A stretch of DNA of 64,000 nt from Leadbetterella sp. GTDB taxonomy: Bacteria > Bacteroidota > Bacteroidia > Cytophagales > Spirosomataceae. The stretch covers positions 35,130 through 99,129 of the forward strand of contig JAHBUH010000017.1 of NCBI GenBank assembly GCA_019638185.1, written 5' to 3'. The position numbers and the translations under genes are program-made. The notes beneath the pieces were generated by a model, which ran no database searches, was not told the origin of the DNA, and saw nothing but the letters and a program-made list of their open reading frames with translations. This document shows positions 315 through 37,212 of this stretch, one piece after another. Every line of letters starts with the position of its first letter. Position 1 is the first letter of the stretch.

Positions 315-1169
315 ATGCCTTTAGACCAAGCCCACGTAGAAGAAGAGTTTGACGGAGAGAAAGAAATGACCTTCCTGGAGCACCTGGAAGAGCTCAGGTG
401 GCACCTGATCCGGTCCATAGCGGCGATATTTATATTTATGATAGTGGCCTGGTTTATCAAAGAGTGGGTGTACGGTACTATCATCATGGGGCCGTCAAAG
501 ATAGACTTCTGGACCTATCGGAAAATGTGTGAAATAGGCCGGCTTTTACATATTGACAGCCTTTGTTTGCAGGAGTTGAAATTTGATGTGCAAAACAGGG
601 AAATTTCCGGCCAGTTTATGCTGGCTATCACCTCTTCTGCCATTATCGGTCTGCTGATTGCGTTTCCCTATGTTATTTGGGAGATATGGTCGTTTATAAA
701 ACCCGGCTTACGGCCGGCAGAAAGAAGAGCCGCCCGGGGAGCCGTATTTATCATTTCCCTTTTGTTTTTCTCCGGAGTGCTTTTCGGGTACTACGTGGTG
801 ACTCCTTTTGCCGTTCACTTTATGGTAAACTTCCAGCTGGATCCGACCATCGTGAACCAGTATGACATAAAGAACTATCTCTCCATCCTGACCACCCTTA
901 CCCTGGCCTGCGGACTCATGTTCCAGCTGCCCGTGGTGATCATGGTGCTGACTAAAATAGGCATTGTTACCCCCGATTTCTTAAAGGAATATCGCCGGCA
1001 TGCTTTTGTGGTGATCCTGATCGTGGCCGCGGTGATTACGCCTTCGCCGGATATGATCAGCCAAATTTTAGTGGCCATTCCGCTTTATTTTCTGTTTGAA
1101 GTAAGTATCTTAGTGTCCAATAGGATTTACAAGGATAATCTCAAACAGCTGGAAGATGAACACATTTAA
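315..1169 (+). CDS. tatC: Sec-independent protein translocase subunit TatC
   Basis: TatC is the six-helix core of the twin-arginine translocase; it binds the RR signal peptide of folded substrates in the inner membrane. The 284-residue protein has the conserved cytoplasmic N-terminus (MTFLEHLEELR), several long hydrophobic segments, the F-KPGL-P-E--- loop and the late ITPSPD motif before the last helix. The first periplasmic loop (about residues 55-95) is longer than in E. coli TatC, which is common in Bacteroidota. ATG 315 is chosen because it gives the expected N-terminus. No tatA or tatB gene is seen nearby. The gene overlaps the next one by 14 bp, so the two are probably translated together. 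Confidence 0.96.
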   Translation: MPLDQAHVEEEFDGEKEMTFLEHLEELRWHLIRSIAAIFIFMIVAWFIKEWVYGTIIMGPSKIDFWTYRKMCEIGRLLHIDSLCLQELKFDVQNREISGQFMLAITSSAIIGLLIAFPYVIWEIWSFIKPGLRPAERRAARGAVFIISLLFFSGVLFGYYVVTPFAVHFMVNFQLDPTIVNQYDIKNYLSILTTLTLACGLMFQLPVVIMVLTKIGIVTPDFLKEYRRHAFVVILIVAAVITPSPDMISQILVAIPLYFLFEVSILVSNRIYKDNLKQLEDEHI

Positions 1170-2277
1170 AAAAATAGCCCCTCCACGGAGCCTGGCAGGT
1201 ACGCTGGTTTCTATTGTTATCCTGGTATACATTGCCTACATCCTGCAGGATGTGATCGTGCCGTTTGTGGTGGCTGCCCTCTTTTCCTTCCTCCTGTACC
1301 CGGTATGCAACTACCTGGAAATGAAGGGTGTTCCGCGGGTAATATCCATCATTGTAGGCATTATTCTCATCACGGCCGTAGTGGCGGGCCTGGTCTATGT
1401 GGTTTATACGCAGGTGATAGGCCTGGATGACCTCTTTCCACAGGTGGAAACCCGGTTTAACCAGTGGGTGGGTGACCTGGCGGGTTTCCTGGGAAATTTC
1501 GGGATCAATAAAGAGCAGCTCATTACCGAAGGCCAGAAGCACATTTCCGAAGCCGTGAAGAGCGGGTCTAAATTCCTGGGGGCCACCATAGGCGGTACCT
1601 CTAACTTCCTGATGAGCATGGCCCTTCTGCCGCTTTATATTTTCCTGATGCTGATGTACCGTGATTTCCTGAAGACGTTCGTCTTTAAGTGGCTGAAAGA
1701 TACCAGTAAGCACAAGATCGTGGCTACCATGAATAAAGTGAAAACCGTGGTGCGGGGCTATATCCTGGGCCTGATGCTGGTGATCCTGATCATCGGTACA
1801 CTGAACTCCGCCGCCCTGTACTTCATCGGTATTGAACACGCCCTCTTCTTCGGGTTCTTTGCGGCTTTCCTGGCTATTCTGCCCTACATCGGAGTGGCTA
1901 TCGGCTCGGCGCTGCCTATCCTGGTGGCCCTGATCACCAAAGACTCCTACCTGGCGGCCCTGGCGGTGGCGGCGTCTTTTGCCGTGGTGCAATTCCTGGA
2001 AGGTAATTTTATCACGCCTTATGTGGTAGGAAACCAGGTGAGCATCAATGCCCTGGTGGCCATCACGGCCTTACTGCTCTTCGGCAAGCTCTGGGGCATA
2101 GGCGGCATGATCCTGGCCCTGCCGGTAACGGCTATCCTGAAAGTGATCTTTGACGCCAGTCCGAGGCTGGAAGCCTGGGGATTCCTGCTCGGTGATGCCG
2201 AGAATGAAGATGTAAAGCACGTTAAAAAGAACTTTAAATTCCGCGATTTTTACGACACCGTCACGAAGAAAATCTGA
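1156..2277 (+). CDS. AI-2E family transporter (PerM/YhhT-type membrane protein)
   Basis: A 373-residue integral membrane protein with about eight hydrophobic segments: a pair near residues 17-50, two near 60-85, and a block from about 150 to 330 with the family's glycine/proline-rich helices (PLYIFLMLMYRD, then LAILPYIGV-IGS-LP, then FITPYVVGNQVSINAL). These match the AI-2E exporter family, whose members include autoinducer-2 exporters and Na+/H+ antiporters, so the substrate cannot be named. The start ATG 1156 lies inside tatC. The 3' end overlaps the opposite-strand RluA gene by 17 bp. No luxS is visible in the window. Confidence 0.9.
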   Translation: MNTFKKIAPPRSLAGTLVSIVILVYIAYILQDVIVPFVVAALFSFLLYPVCNYLEMKGVPRVISIIVGIILITAVVAGLVYVVYTQVIGLDDLFPQVETRFNQWVGDLAGFLGNFGINKEQLITEGQKHISEAVKSGSKFLGATIGGTSNFLMSMALLPLYIFLMLMYRDFLKTFVFKWLKDTSKHKIVATMNKVKTVVRGYILGLMLVILIIGTLNSAALYFIGIEHALFFGFFAAFLAILPYIGVAIGSALPILVALITKDSYLAALAVAASFAVVQFLEGNFITPYVVGNQVSINALVAITALLLFGKLWGIGGMILALPVTAILKVIFDASPRLEAWGFLLGDAENEDVKHVKKNFKFRDFYDTVTKKI

Positions 2278-17588: not shown

Positions 17589-19019
17589 ATGGAGTTTGAT
17601 GTGGTGATCGGTCTGGAAGTACACTGCCAGCTAAATACCAGGAGCAAGATATTTGCCAGGGATCATAACAGTTTCGGGGCGGAAGCCAATACGAATATCG
17701 GGGTGCTGACCCTGGCCCACCCGGGTGTGCTTCCGCGTACTAACCGGGAGGTGGTAGACAGTGCCGTAAAACTGGGCCTGGCTTTTGGGAGTGAGATCAA
17801 CCGCTTCAATTATTTCGACAGGAAAAATTATTTTTACCCCGATCTGCCCAAAGGCTACCAGGTAACCCAGGACAGCCGGCCGGTGTGTGTGGGCGGTAGC
17901 GTGCGTTTTGTGCTGAAAGAAGGCCGCTCGTATGTAGATCATGAGGTGAAGGTGCATCATATTCACATGGAAGAAGATGCGGGGAAATCCATTCACGCCG
18001 CTGACGGCACCCTGCTGGACTATAACCGGGCCGGGGCACCGCTGCTGGAGATCGTGTCTTACCCCTGCATTACATCACCGGAAGAGGCGGCGGGCTACCT
18101 GGCGGAGATCCGGCGGATAGTGCGCTTCCTGGGCATCAGTGACGGTAACATGGAAGAAGGATCACTCCGCGCTGACCTGAACGTATCCCTGAAGCCCAAA
18201 GGCAGCGAAATCCTGGGTACCAAGGTGGAGATCAAGAACATGAACTCCATCCGGTTTTTACAGCGTGCGGCCGAATACGAGATCCGGCGGCAGGCGGAAC
18301 TGCTGCAGGCCGGCGGGCAGGTGCTCCAGGAAACCCGTACCTTTATCCCGGAAACCGGGGAAACGGAAGGTATGCGGGTGAAGGAAACCGCTAACGACTA
18401 CCGGTATTTCCCGGAACCTGACCTGGCCCCCATCCATATCCCGGAAGAAAAGTTAGCGGAAATAAAGCTCCCGGAACTGCCGTATGCGCTTTTTCATACC
18501 TTTGTTTCAGAGTATGGCCTGCCCGAGGATAACGCCTACGTGATCTCGGAAGAAAAGGAGCTGAGTGATTATTTCCGGGAGACAGTAAGCCTGACGCCGC
18601 ATTACAAGGCGGTTTCCAACTGGATGGTTTCCTATATGCGGGGCGATATGAATGAGCGGGGCCTGGGCATCCATGAATACCCTGTCCGGCCGGCCCAGCT
18701 GGCTGAACTGGTGAACGCCATTGAAGAAGGAAAATTCAGCCATACCGCCGGCCAAAAGTTAATGGCCCTGTTAACGGAGACACCGCGGGCTAACCTGATG
18801 GCTCTGGCCGAGTCAAACGGACTGGTGCTGACCCAGGATACGTCCAGCATCAGCGCGTGGGCAGATGAAGTGCTCACACGCAATAAAACCAAGGTGGAAG
18901 AGTTTAAGAAGGGAAAGAAAGGGCTTCTGGGCCTGTTTGTGGGAGAAGTAATGAAGCTCTCCGGCGGTTCGGCAGACCCGCGGGAAGTAAATAAGGTGTT
19001 AATGGAAAAACTTCAATAA
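17589..19019 (+). CDS. gatB: Asp-tRNA(Asn)/Glu-tRNA(Gln) amidotransferase subunit B
   Basis: GatB phosphorylates the misacylated Glu-tRNA(Gln) or Asp-tRNA(Asn) so that GatA-supplied ammonia can amidate it. The 476-residue protein has the catalytic core signature VIGLEVHCQL, FDRKNYFYPDLPKGYQ, HHIHMEEDAGK, DYNRAGAPLLEIVS and GSLRADLNVSL, then the helical and YqeY-like tRNA-binding tail from about 330. gatA and gatC are not in the window, as is common outside the gatCAB operons of Firmicutes. Confidence 0.97.
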   Translation: MEFDVVIGLEVHCQLNTRSKIFARDHNSFGAEANTNIGVLTLAHPGVLPRTNREVVDSAVKLGLAFGSEINRFNYFDRKNYFYPDLPKGYQVTQDSRPVCVGGSVRFVLKEGRSYVDHEVKVHHIHMEEDAGKSIHAADGTLLDYNRAGAPLLEIVSYPCITSPEEAAGYLAEIRRIVRFLGISDGNMEEGSLRADLNVSLKPKGSEILGTKVEIKNMNSIRFLQRAAEYEIRRQAELLQAGGQVLQETRTFIPETGETEGMRVKETANDYRYFPEPDLAPIHIPEEKLAEIKLPELPYALFHTFVSEYGLPEDNAYVISEEKELSDYFRETVSLTPHYKAVSNWMVSYMRGDMNERGLGIHEYPVRPAQLAELVNAIEEGKFSHTAGQKLMALLTETPRANLMALAESNGLVLTQDTSSISAWADEVLTRNKTKVEEFKKGKKGLLGLFVGEVMKLSGGSADPREVNKVLMEKLQ

Positions 19020-34301: not shown

Positions 34302-35504
34302 ATGAAACTCGACAGGATAGAAGAGGCCATTGAAGATATCCGAAACGGCCGGATCATTATAGTAGTGGATGATGAGGACAGGGAAAATGAAGGTGACTTT
34401 ATCTGTGCGGCTGAAAAAATAACGCCGGAGATGGTTAACTTTATGATCCGTGAAGGGCGGGGGCTCATGTGCGCCCCGCTGACCGCAGAGCGCTGCCGCG
34501 AGCTGGAACTGGCCCCTATGGTACACCGGAATACCGCTGAATACGAAACGGCCTTTACAGTGTCTGTAGACCTCCTGGGAAACGGCTGTACCACCGGTAT
34601 CTCGGCTTCTGACCGGGCCAAGACCCTCCAGGCCCTGGTGAATAAAAATACCCTTCCTACTGACCTGGGCCGGCCGGGGCATATCTTCCCGCTGATGGCG
34701 AGGGCCGGCGGCGTGCTTCGCCGGGCCGGGCATACCGAGGCGGCCGTGGATTTTGCACGGCTGGCCGGGCTGGAGCCCGCCGGTGTGCTGATCGAGATCC
34801 TGAATGAAGACGGCACCATGGCCCGCCTGCCCGAATGCCGGGTAATGGCTGACCGCCTGGGGCTGAGGCTGGTGTCTATCAAAGACCTCATCGCCTACCG
34901 GCTCCGGAATGAGAGCCTGATCACCCGGGAGATCGGCGTGGAAATGCCTACGGAATGGGGAAACTTTGAGATGATCGCCTTCCGCCAGAAAGACAATAAC
35001 CAGCTTCACCTGGCCCTCGTCAAAGGCTCATGGGAAAAAGATGAGCCGGTGCTGGTGCGGGTGCACTCCTCCTGCGTGACCGGGGACATCTTCGGCTCCT
35101 GCCGCTGCGACTGCGGCCCTCAGCTGCACGCCGCCATGCAGATGGTGGAAAAAGAAGGCAAAGGGGTGATCGTATACATGAACCAGGAGGGCCGGGGAAT
35201 AGGCCTGCTGAATAAACTCAAAGCCTATAAACTGCAGGAGCAGGGAAAAGACACCGTAGAGGCTAACCTGGAGCTGGGCTTCCAGGCCGATCAGCGCGAT
35301 TACGGCGTAGGGGCGCAAATCCTCCGTAACCTGGGTATCACCCAGCTGAGGCTCATTTCCAATAACCCGAAAAAACGCGCAGGACTGGTCGGATACGGGC
35401 TGGAGATCGTGGAAAACGTGCCCATTGAGATTGCACCGAACCCCCACAATGAGTTTTATCTCTCTACCAAAAGGGATAAGCTGGGGCACACCATCATGTC
35501 ATAA
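34302..35504 (+). CDS. ribBA: Bifunctional 3,4-dihydroxy-2-butanone 4-phosphate synthase / GTP cyclohydrolase II
   Basis: The enzyme carries out the two entry steps of riboflavin synthesis. The 400-residue protein has an N-terminal RibB domain (about 1-205) with [24 protein letters not shown] and a [21 protein letters not shown] segment, and a C-terminal RibA domain (about 210-400) with the zinc site [12 protein letters not shown] and NQEGRGIGL. No FMN riboswitch is apparent in the short leader (34151-34301). A hairpin lies at its stop codon. Confidence 0.97.
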
Positions 35505-35538
35505 AAAAACACACAATCTGCAAAATGAGATTGTGTGT
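35503..35538 (-). terminator. Minus-strand terminator at the ribBA 3' end
   Basis: Perfect 11-bp arms, ACACACAATCT (35509-35519) and AGATTGTGTGT (35528-35538). The A run at 35503-35509 becomes a T run after the hairpin on the minus strand, so it works best against minus-strand transcription coming from the tRNA-like RNA. It may also end ribBA. Confidence 0.75.
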
Positions 35539-35580
35539 ATGACTATACTTCATCAACAAACTAAAAAACAATGATATATA

Positions 35581-35612
35581 AAAATAGCATGAAATGACCT
35601 TCATGCTATTTT
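35581..35612 (-). terminator. Terminator of the tRNA-like RNA
   Basis: Perfect 13-bp arms (35581-35593 and 35600-35612) with a 6-nt loop. On the minus strand the hairpin is followed by an A/T-rich tail; its stem begins 4 nt after the acceptor-like 3' end of the RNA. Confidence 0.85.
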
Positions 35613-35616
35613 TGTG

Positions 35617-35779
35617 CTGTAGGAGGGGGAGTCGAACCGCCCACGATGCAGTTAGCCTTAGTGCAAATTTTGGTGGTCAACCCCAGTCGAGACTAAACCG
35701 TTCGGCTTACACTATGTTTATCCTGTGATCATCACCCCCGAGACAGGAGGGCACGGCTGCCAGTTTCGTCATCCTACAG
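35617..35779 (-). ncRNA. tRNA-like stand-alone RNA of about 163 nt
   Basis: The gap 35505-35953 has no gene but holds this element. On the minus strand: an 8-bp end helix, CTGTAGGA (35779-35772) with TCCTACAG (35624-35617); a D-arm-like hairpin with the conserved TGG in its loop (35769-35753); a hairpin CCCTC/GGGGG with a 7-nt loop (35751-35735); and a T-arm-like hairpin with loop TTCGACT (35636-35630) and one mismatch. About 90 nt replace the variable arm, including a helix of 35707-35714 with 35659-35666. No CCA is encoded. A promoter box and two terminators bracket it. It is too short for tmRNA and has no tag frame. It may be a degenerate tRNA or a separate RNA class. Confidence 0.55.
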
Positions 35780-35815
35780 TATCGTTTTCGTTAACCCGCC
35801 GTTCGAATTACAGTG

Positions 35816-35847
35816 CAAAGATAAGCGCTTTATTTGAATTTTTAAAA
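35816..35847 (-). promoter_or_regulatory. Predicted promoter of the tRNA-like RNA
   Basis: On the minus strand, TTTT (35847-35844), a 20-bp spacer and an exact -7 TATCTTTG (35823-35816). The expected transcript start is near 35809, giving a leader of about 30 nt before the end helix. Confidence 0.55.
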
Positions 35848-35889
35848 ACTGTATCAAAAAAAAATTATAATTTAAGATTATGTATAGAA

Positions 35890-35897
35890 TATATTTG
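35890..35897 (+). promoter_or_regulatory. -7 promoter box for the second Lrp gene
   Basis: TATATTTG is an exact TAnnTTTG match about 57 bp before the start codon. The surrounding 100 bp is very A/T-rich, so chance matches are likely here. Confidence 0.35.
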
Positions 35898-35953
35898 TAT
35901 TTGCAGAATATTATTTAATTTCGGGCATTGGTAAAAACTAATAACTAAATAAC

Positions 35954-36412
35954 ATGAAAGAAAATATTGATGAAACCGACTATAAGATATTGAGAATACT
36001 CCTGGACGATGCGAAATTGTCGTACCAGGAGATCGGTGAGAAGGTGAACCTGTCTCAGGGAGCCGTACATGCCCGGGTGAAAAAAATGGAGAATTCCGGG
36101 ATTATTGTGGGAAGCAGCATAAAGATAGATGTAAAACGACTGGGCTGGGATATTTCAGCGTTTTTAGGTATATTTCTGGAAAAACCGGAGCTGTATGACC
36201 ATGCTAAGAATGAACTCATGGAAATCCCTGAAGTGGTAAGCATTAACTATACTACCGGAAATTACAGTATGTTTGTAAAACTGGTTTGCCGCGATACCAC
36301 CCATCTGCGCGATGTGCTGGCCGAGCGGATCCAGAAGCTGCCCGGCATTCAGCGTACAGAGACCATCATTTCCCTGGACGAGTCGCTAAACCGGTCGGCC
36401 CCCTTAATTTAA
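35954..36412 (+). CDS. Lrp/AsnC-family transcriptional regulator (second copy)
   Basis: A 152-residue regulator: HTH at about 5-60 (DETDYKILRILLDDAKLSYQEIGEKVNLSQGAVHARVKKM) and a RAM domain after it. It differs from the copy at 21.1 kb in recognition-helix residues (LSQGAVHARVKKM against LTTTPVHERIKRL), so the two should bind different sites. It lies 5 bp before the DUF1460 gene and may regulate or be cotranscribed with that operon. Confidence 0.93.
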   Translation: MKENIDETDYKILRILLDDAKLSYQEIGEKVNLSQGAVHARVKKMENSGIIVGSSIKIDVKRLGWDISAFLGIFLEKPELYDHAKNELMEIPEVVSINYTTGNYSMFVKLVCRDTTHLRDVLAERIQKLPGIQRTETIISLDESLNRSAPLI

Positions 36413-36417
36413 CAGTT

Positions 36418-37212
36418 ATGAGAATCTTTTTTTTGAGTTTACTGATCTGCTTTTCCGCATCGGCCCAGGAGTCGGCCCTGAAAATACTGCAGACCCCTCC
36501 TAAGGAAAAGCTGAACAAGACCATCCTGGATGTGGCCGGGCAGTTCCTGGGCAAGCCTTACGTACCGGCCACACTGGAAAAAATACCGGAGGCGCTGGTG
36601 GTGAACCTGGAGGAGTTTGACTGCTTCACCCTGGTAGAAAATGTACTGGCGCTGTCTTTGGCCAAGCATAACGCCGAAGCAGGCCTGGACGTGTACCGCG
36701 AGTACCTGCAGCTGCTGCGGTATCGTGACGGGGTGATTGACGGGTATCCCTCCCGCATGCATTATTTTACCGACTGGGCCCGGCAGGCCACGGATAACGG
36801 TATCCTGGTGAATATCACGGAAGAAGTGGGGGAGGTGCAGGAGAAGCCCATCGACTTCATGTCGGCTAACCGCCGGCTTTACCCCGCCCTGGCTACCGAT
36901 GACAAAGCCCTGGCGGCGATCGTAAGCACGGAGAAAGCCCTGAATGAGCATCCTTTTTACTATGTCCCGAAAAGTAAATTCAGTGCGGTGGAAGACCAGA
37001 TCGAAGACGGAGACATTATAGCCTTTACTTCGGTGGTGAAAGGACTGGATGTGAACCACGAAGGTTTTGCTATCCGGAAAGGCGGGAAGCTGTACCTGCT
37101 GCATGCCTCCCTGGACGAGAAAAAGGTGATTATTTCAAAAGAAACCCTGCAGCAGTACCTGGAGCGGATCAAGAAACACTCCGGGATCCTGATCTTCAGA
37201 CCTACCCGATAA
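36418..37212 (+). CDS. DUF1460 protein, predicted N-acetylmuramoyl-L-alanine amidase
   Basis: A 264-residue exported protein of the DUF1460 family (NlpC/P60-like fold), structural members of which are proposed cell-wall amidases. The signal peptide (1 to about 16, SASAQ) is followed by EEFDCFTLVENVLAL with the candidate catalytic Cys, YPSRMHYFTDW, and a late NHEGFAIRK-G-LYLLHAS segment with the candidate His. The frame is open from 36286, but ATG 36418 gives the signal. It directly abuts pepP. Confidence 0.88.
   Translation: MRIFFLSLLICFSASAQESALKILQTPPKEKLNKTILDVAGQFLGKPYVPATLEKIPEALVVNLEEFDCFTLVENVLALSLAKHNAEAGLDVYREYLQLLRYRDGVIDGYPSRMHYFTDWARQATDNGILVNITEEVGEVQEKPIDFMSANRRLYPALATDDKALAAIVSTEKALNEHPFYYVPKSKFSAVEDQIEDGDIIAFTSVVKGLDVNHEGFAIRKGGKLYLLHASLDEKKVIISKETLQQYLERIKKHSGILIFRPTR

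Follow-up and report, generated by a model that had tools for sequence, protein, structure and literature searches.

A large tRNA-like RNA of Bacteroidota and viral contigs, a candidate non-decoding carrier for tRNA-dependent asparagine synthesis

The window, a stretch of 64,000 nucleotides of Leadbetterella sp. DNA, carries on its minus strand the gene of a tRNA-like RNA with an enlarged variable arm (Table 1). A sequence-only reading of the window had described here a promoter box, a leader of about 30 nt and an RNA of about 163 nt, and all three were seen as claimed. The box is TATCTTTG, which we take to be a -7 box of the Bacteroidota type; the -33 box of the putative promoter is weakly matched, and about 30 nt lie between the TATCTTTG box and the RNA. 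The D-arm-like hairpin with TGG, the hairpin in the anticodon position and the T-arm with the loop TTCGACT are also present. The end helix, described before as 8 bp, does close the molecule; since base -1 is variable (C in 131, U in 104, A in 51 and G in 1 of 287 copies), a reading of 7 bp followed by G73 suits it best. About 90 nt with an internal helix do stand in the place of the variable arm, and they form a class II-like arm closed at its base by a 4-bp helix. The earlier suggestion of a tRNA with an insertion was right in part: the D-arm resembles that of tRNA-Leu, and the added length is an enlarged variable arm and no intron. Two hairpin-plus-T sites were found where tandem terminators had been proposed, the second of which belongs to a separate element, RNA2, and not to this gene. 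The T-stem bulge, unusual for a tRNA T-arm, is one base in the family of the window and two (UU) in two other loci (L046 and L047). Model R1 of the RNA matched 35615-35780 with 148.5 bits, spanning 2 nt 5′ of U1 and 1 nt 3′ of C74, and at E up to 1e-16 it found this sole copy in the genome of the window.

Table 1. Features of the tRNA-like RNA locus and of related genes in the window.
Feature	Position	Strand	Basis or remark
GatB, subunit of Asp-tRNA(Asn)/Glu-tRNA(Gln) amidotransferase	17589-19019	+	about 16.6 kb from the tRNA-like RNA
ribBA	34302-35504	+	flanks the tRNA-like RNA gene
RNA2: conserved 25-mer (35543-35567), then hairpin (35509-35538) and T run	35509-35570	-	
Hairpin and T run, probable terminator of the tRNA-like RNA	35578-35613	-	sequence
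tRNA-like RNA, U1 to encoded C74, 163 nt	35616-35778	-	R1 model match and covariation
G73 and encoded C74	35616-35617	-	3′ end shared with the ordinary tRNA genes at these loci
T-arm, one bulged base (C35639), loop UUCGACU at 35630-35636	35625-35642	-	alignment, sequence
Enlarged variable arm	35645-35733	-	alignment helices
Variable-arm base helix GATG/CATC, 4 bp	35730-35733 with 35645-35648	-	alignment
Variable-arm internal helix	35707-35714/35659-35667	-	alignment
Anticodon-position arm, hairpin CCCTC-CTGTCTC-GGGGG	35735-35751	-	covariation
Anticodon-position loop C32 U33 G34 U35 C36 U37 C38 (CUGUCUC)	35740-35746	-	covariation, position counts
D-arm, tRNA-Leu-like, single base from G19 to A21 (no 20a)	35753-35769	-	covariation
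Acceptor stem 5′ strand UGUAGGA, including U1	35772-35778, pairs with 35618-35624	-	covariation
TATCTTTG box	35816-35823	-	sequence
AsnC-like transcriptional regulator, divergent from the tRNA-like RNA	35954-36412	+	profile scores, solved relatives

RNA2 consists of a strictly conserved 20-25-mer, TTTTTAGTTTGTTGATGAAGTRTAR, and a terminator hairpin after it that looks covarying. The exact 20-mer with a terminator-like hairpin was found 0-141 nt downstream of the tRNA-like RNA in 57 loci (three duplicates were removed from this list and a few remain). When up to one mismatch was allowed, the 20-mer occurred in 62 of 99 relatives, and the reversed control gave two matches. A TAnnTTTG-like box precedes RNA2 in several relatives. 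RNA2 persists at loci where AsnC and the tRNA-like RNA are missing, so it is probably a small RNA or a terminator element in its own right; it has no part in the mechanism proposed below. Pairing between the two RNAs was considered for 19 loci and rejected, as the duplex energies scattered about the values for shuffled partners and no site recurred consistently (L013, with the best duplex, lay 1.7 sd below its shuffles).

Standard searches of the window did not recover the tRNA-like RNA. It was left uncalled in the tRNA search of ARAGORN; the tmRNA search of the same program found nothing in the window, and no tag frame was seen, in line with the earlier reading. Rfam release 15 produced no match in the window at gathering scores and, at E up to 10 on 35480-35960, four chance-level matches and nothing better. 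There was thus neither a match to a known family nor a tRNA call with a standard intron. Minimum-free-energy folding was no better than that of shuffles (z of +1.12 and -0.07). Since single-sequence folding is at chance level, the case for the RNA rests on comparison. A blastn search with a 213-nt query found matches in 71 of 99 genomes, that of the window among them. When a hand-written cloverleaf was applied to 36 diverse aligned copies, 93.8% of the cells were paired, as compared with 83.4% for shuffled and 50-58% for slid versions, and cells changed on both sides numbered 135 versus 40 in shuffles. Pairing in these copies was 97-100% for the helices of the acceptor, D, anticodon-position and T arms and for the base helix of the variable arm, with compensatory changes in each, and 77% for the internal helix of the variable arm. 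Pairing reached 94.2% of the cells in 122 distinct bacterial rows and 96.5% in 61 distinct viral rows, both sets being aligned to the model and hence biased toward it.

The conserved-core pattern had one match in the window and none in 100 shuffles. Family members score about 72-150 bits with R1 and are mostly 111-200 nt long; matches of ordinary tRNA size reach at most 62 bits, and the strongest two of these that could be compared with ARAGORN are tRNA-Leu (L213 and L221). ARAGORN was silent on nine of ten loci with copies of the tRNA-like RNA. The exception, L291, has a member of 80 nt whose variable loop is short (1137-1216, minus strand) and which ARAGORN calls tRNA-Asp(atc), in a bacterial family that otherwise shows the Hymenobacter-type form. 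The stem of the anticodon-position arm differs in distant members (CCGCC/GGCGG, CCGUC/GACGG and CUAGC/GCUAG), and because of these changes a resemblance of this arm to the 16S 3′ end, noticed by eye, was dropped. On this comparative evidence the tRNA-like RNA is a member of a separate family that has no match in Rfam, as the earlier reading had offered among its options together with a degenerate tRNA. Almost no credence can be given to a degenerate tRNA or a chance resemblance. An ordinary folding energy and the silence of ARAGORN and Rfam would fit it, but the helices are kept by compensatory change in three alignments, identity positions such as G73 and C74 are constant, and the RNA has a wide distribution across Bacteroidota and viral contigs.

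Among genomes sampled from the order, 236 of 292 had the RNA by R1 at E up to 1e-16; for those sampled from the phylum the figure was 43 of 392, three of the 43 belonging to another class. The core pattern matched at least 118 stretches from named genomes; Dyadobacter, Spirosoma, Hymenobacter, Algoriphagus, Pontibacter, Flammeovirga and Saprospiraceae are among the matches listed. Tandem copies are common, with up to seven R1 matches per genome. Arrays of five or six tandem copies were seen in L031, L140 and L162, for example in Flammeovirga and Phaeodactylibacter.

The core pattern was also present on 83 viral contigs of IMG/VR, and R1 aligned 82 of these 83 copies, the remaining one (L274) being cut by the contig end. 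The INPHARED phages had no match to a 111-nt query at E 1e-3 and three short weak matches to a 50-nt query, two of them within a tRNA-Leu gene; PLSDB plasmids had no match at E 1e-3. ARAGORN was run on 42 viral loci. It found a tmRNA in nine of them and made 25 tRNA calls in one (L242); in several loci a tRNA-Ser(UGA) adjoins the tRNA-like RNA, and five (L230, L236, L245, L252 and L271) contain no other tRNA. The segment that follows GACCAC holds a perfect palindrome of at least 6 nt in 53 of 57 distinct viral copies (26% in shuffles) and one of at least 8 nt in 40 of the 57, as compared with a palindrome in 25 of 103 bacterial copies (22% in shuffles). The viral palindromes vary in sequence (GCCGGCCGGC, TTGTGCACAA, GCGCGC and others, in L205-L287), and our guess is that such loops might let two viral RNA molecules pair. 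Extra D-loop sequence, often palindromic or hairpin-like, was observed on large viral contigs (L209, L210, L213, L221, L232, L233, L242, L246 and others).

Positions were counted in 288 distinct copies, and the 3′ end in the 285 that reach it. U35, C36 and C38, the last an Asp determinant, occur in 288 of 288 copies, and a single base separates G19 from A21 in all of them (GGCAG in 285, GGCAA in two, GGGAA in one); positions 35-38 and the D-loop (GGCAG) were preset in copies found with the pattern, and free in those found with blastn or R1. In eight tRNA-Asp genes examined, two or more bases lie between G19 and A21. Position 34 is G in 263 of the 288 copies; at position 37, 286 copies have a pyrimidine and two a purine, and position 33 is U in 251 and another base in 37. 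G73 and C74 are present in 285 of 285, and U1-A72 in 36 of 36, 58 of 60 and 120 of 121 copies of three overlapping sets. For comparison, 292 distinct ordinary tRNAs were taken from the same loci, mostly viral. They have C74 in 291 (read by taking the final C of the ARAGORN call as C74), U33 in 290 and a purine at 37 in 289, and all ten tRNAs found in the 1.46 Mb of the window's genome that were scanned have C74. The tRNA-Asp of these loci carries G73 and the loop CTGTCAC in 11 of 11. Two other identities were rejected: leucine, since the D-arm is Leu-like but G73 stands where tRNA-Leu has A73 (31 of 33 in the same loci), and glutamate, since tRNA-Glu in these loci has A73 (14 of 14) and not G73. 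The single host tRNA-Asn found in the window's genome carries U1-A72; distinct tRNA-Asn from the fetched loci, all from viral contigs, have G1-C72 in eight of eight.

According to PMC9976931, U1-A72 confers amidation of Asp-tRNA-Asn, G1-C72 and U20a block it, G1-C72 is crucial in bacterial tRNA-Asp, and the AspRS determinants include G34, U35 and C36 with G73; PMC4206432 gives U1-A72 as the recognition element of bacterial GatCAB. By these criteria the tRNA-like RNA has the four AspRS determinants and both GatCAB determinants (U1-A72 and no U20a), and it lacks the G1-C72 of bacterial tRNA-Asp, having U1-A72 instead. The molecule reads as Asp and GatCAB determinants on a tRNA-Leu-like body. The pyrimidine at 37 and the variable position 33 indicate that it probably does not decode. 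A role in translation, either as a special tRNA that inserts Asp or Asn or in ribosome rescue, would agree with the tRNA-like 3′ end and with the position of the RNA among tRNAs, and sometimes beside a tmRNA, on large viral contigs. We nevertheless regard it as very unlikely, given the state of positions 37 and 33, the missing tag frame, the viral loci without any other tRNA, and the fact that it is amidation genes that take the place of the RNA in some relatives.

These relatives provide the most direct evidence on function, namely amidation genes at the site of the tRNA-like RNA. In the window's family, five genomes (G028, G030, G053, G023 and G042) have the RNA2 20-mer and no blastn match to the tRNA-like RNA; R1 with filters off detected nothing at the 20-mer site of these relatives, nor did R1 genome-wide in G028 and G030. 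In G028, G030 and G053, a GatB-AspRS fusion lies between the 20-mer and a homologue of the gene at 36286-37212 of the window, and AsnC had no match within the 8 kb of these three loci. In G028 and G030, the two of these three that were examined for GatA, GatA-like genes (434-436 bits, cut-off 481) precede the fusion. The gene beyond the 20-mer in G028 is one found beside the tRNA-like RNA in many relatives that have it. G023 is truncated by the contig end, with the same AspRS end visible, and in G042 some 4.4 kb, containing other genes, separate the AspRS part from the 20-mer. A near-match to the 20-mer in G033 (L352), with neither the tRNA-like RNA nor AspRS beside it, was taken as chance. 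Natural GatB-AspRS fusions of 1101-1106 aa were noted at L305 (604-3924, plus strand), L353 (2953-6270, plus strand) and L354 (1754-5059, minus strand), in the last two directly after a GatA-like gene.

Gene content was compared in 66 genomes, 32 with the tRNA-like RNA (RNA+) and 34 without it (RNA-), which were picked by the author, not at random, from among the genomes searched above. GatCAB was scored by GatB alone, which was found in 32 of 32 RNA+ versus 12 of 34 RNA- genomes. AsnS was over the cut-off in all 66 and GlnS in 28 of 32 RNA+ versus 23 of 34 RNA- genomes. Where AsnS and GlnS are both present, neither Gln- nor Asn-tRNA requires GatCAB; in such genomes GatB was found in 28 of 28 RNA+ versus 1 of 23 RNA-. 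The lone RNA- exception, G109, has GatB fused to AspRS in a protein of 1106 aa, and the remaining 11 RNA- genomes with GatB are all without GlnS. All four RNA- members tested in families f56 and f61 (G172, G347, G240 and G137) are without GatB. Canonical AsnB (NF006949, E up to 1e-120) was found in 0 of 32 RNA+ versus 16 of 34 RNA- genomes, one of the 16 just below the cut-off, and AsnA in 2 of 32 versus 1 of 34. Fisher tests of the genome-content contrasts gave p values of 1.5e-13, 3.4e-9 and 3.3e-6, and these, like the counts, ignore shared ancestry. An asparagine-synthase-like protein of TIGR01536 was over the cut-off in 26 of 32 RNA+ and 32 of 34 RNA- genomes; two such proteins of RNA+ genomes that were classified fell below the canonical AsnB cut-off, and those of RNA+ genomes may have asparagine synthase activity. 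The window's genome has GatB, AsnS and GlnS, and neither AsnA nor a TIGR01536 protein over the cut-off was found in it.

We propose that the tRNA-like RNA is probably a dedicated, non-decoding carrier on which AspRS and GatCAB convert aspartate to asparagine, a reading drawn from its sequence features and the genomic context. The RNA would be transcribed from a promoter of its own and would mature, CCA included, as a tRNA does. Its Asp determinants (G34, U35 and C36, G73 and G2-C71) would lead AspRS to load it with aspartate, and GatCAB would then amidate Asp-RNA to Asn-RNA because U1-A72 is present and U20a is absent. Since position 37 is a pyrimidine and position 33 varies, the charged RNA would not decode, so the asparagine would be released in free form for AsnRS and other uses. 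Some observations count against the carrier: G34 and U33 vary, and the AsnC-like neighbour is missing at many copies. With U1-A72 in place of G1-C72, the RNA could be a poor substrate of AspRS. GatCAB could act on the host tRNA-Asn given a non-discriminating AspRS; as this tRNA has U1-A72, it does not tell the two routes apart. The presence of TIGR01536 proteins in 26 and of AsnA in 2 of the 32 RNA+ genomes means that many of them may make asparagine in another way.

The RNA might instead be a scaffold that tethers AspRS and GatCAB for the charging and amidation of tRNA-Asn, without being the main carrier itself. The co-occurrence with GatB and the exchange at the locus would be the same, the replacement being a covalent GatB-AspRS fusion; the host tRNA-Asn has U1-A72, and the large variable arm could bind protein. 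We consider the scaffold unlikely, as the conserved G73, C74 and U1-A72 and the Asp-type loop point to a substrate, and AsnS is present in all sampled RNA+ genomes.

The regulator beside the RNA fits the proposed carrier role. The sequence-only reading had placed the RNA between ribBA and an Lrp gene, of which ribBA was right; the other neighbour scores 149.6 bits with AsnC (model cut-off 227) versus 56.1 bits with Lrp, and among solved structures AsnC 2cg4 comes closest to it (E 9.5e-30; Lrp 2gqq, E 1.5e-11), so by profile scores and solved relatives it is AsnC-like rather than Lrp. An AsnC-like gene lies directly upstream and divergent, in the same orientation every time, at 129 of 225 bacterial copies and is lacking at 96 of the 225 and at 83 of 83 viral copies; copies at locus edges counted as misses, tandem copies were counted apart and some genome regions were fetched twice. 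In E. coli, AsnC regulates asnA by asparagine supply. By analogy, the AsnC-like protein probably tunes transcription of the tRNA-like RNA to the supply of asparagine. The same neighbour could suggest that the RNA mimics a tRNA for regulation, its charging state signalling Asp or Asn supply, perhaps to the AsnC-like protein itself. This is highly improbable in our judgement, since no viral copy has the neighbour and a regulator alone leaves the presence of GatB in every RNA+ genome unexplained.

Asparagine synthesis on tRNA is known from Deinococcus, Thermus and Bdellovibrio, where, according to PMC4206432, a non-discriminating AspRS and GatCAB act on tRNA-Asn. The proposed carrier route is alike in the pair AspRS and GatCAB (inferred here), in the U1-A72 signal and in its occurrence alongside AsnRS and GlnRS. 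It is unlike in that the carrier would come from an RNA family of its own, whose loop is of the Asp type and which lacks decoding features, and with such a carrier a non-discriminating AspRS would not be needed. Like tmRNA, the tRNA-like RNA appears to be non-decoding, is longer than a tRNA and also occurs in phage tRNA arrays; unlike tmRNA, it has no tag frame, keeps the D-stem and the anticodon-position arm and receives no ARAGORN or Rfam call. Staphylococcal tRNA-Gly isoacceptors serve peptidoglycan synthesis, a non-ribosomal use. They too are tRNA-type RNAs that work in metabolism and not in decoding, but they are ordinary-sized isoacceptors of another pathway and form no separate RNA family. 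With tRNA-Leu the tRNA-like RNA shares the D-arm, its variable arm being far larger; with tRNA-Asp it shares G73 and the loop (CUGUCAC in tRNA-Asp) except for base 37, and it has U1-A72, not G1-C72.

The titles and abstract openings searched, with the subscription literature largely outside them, held no earlier description of such an RNA. We know of no dedicated non-decoding RNA for tRNA-dependent asparagine synthesis, nor of phage carriage of one. The class of RNA is new, and the chemistry that it would serve is already known. PMC4206432 counts genera that have AsnRS, GlnRS and GatCAB and no canonical asparagine synthetase, and proposes for them tRNA-Asn with a non-discriminating AspRS. We lean slightly toward a wider view, in which the carrier makes free asparagine through AspRS and GatCAB in much of Cytophagales and relatives, replacing the canonical asparagine synthetase, and in which phages carry it as an auxiliary metabolic RNA that sustains asparagine during infection. 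If true, this would explain the presence of GatCAB without canonical asparagine synthetase in Bacteroidota that have AsnRS and GlnRS. A large bacterial group would then make an amino acid on a dedicated RNA and not on a translating tRNA, which would be a new role for a tRNA-like RNA, with a phage RNA gene acting as a metabolic aid.
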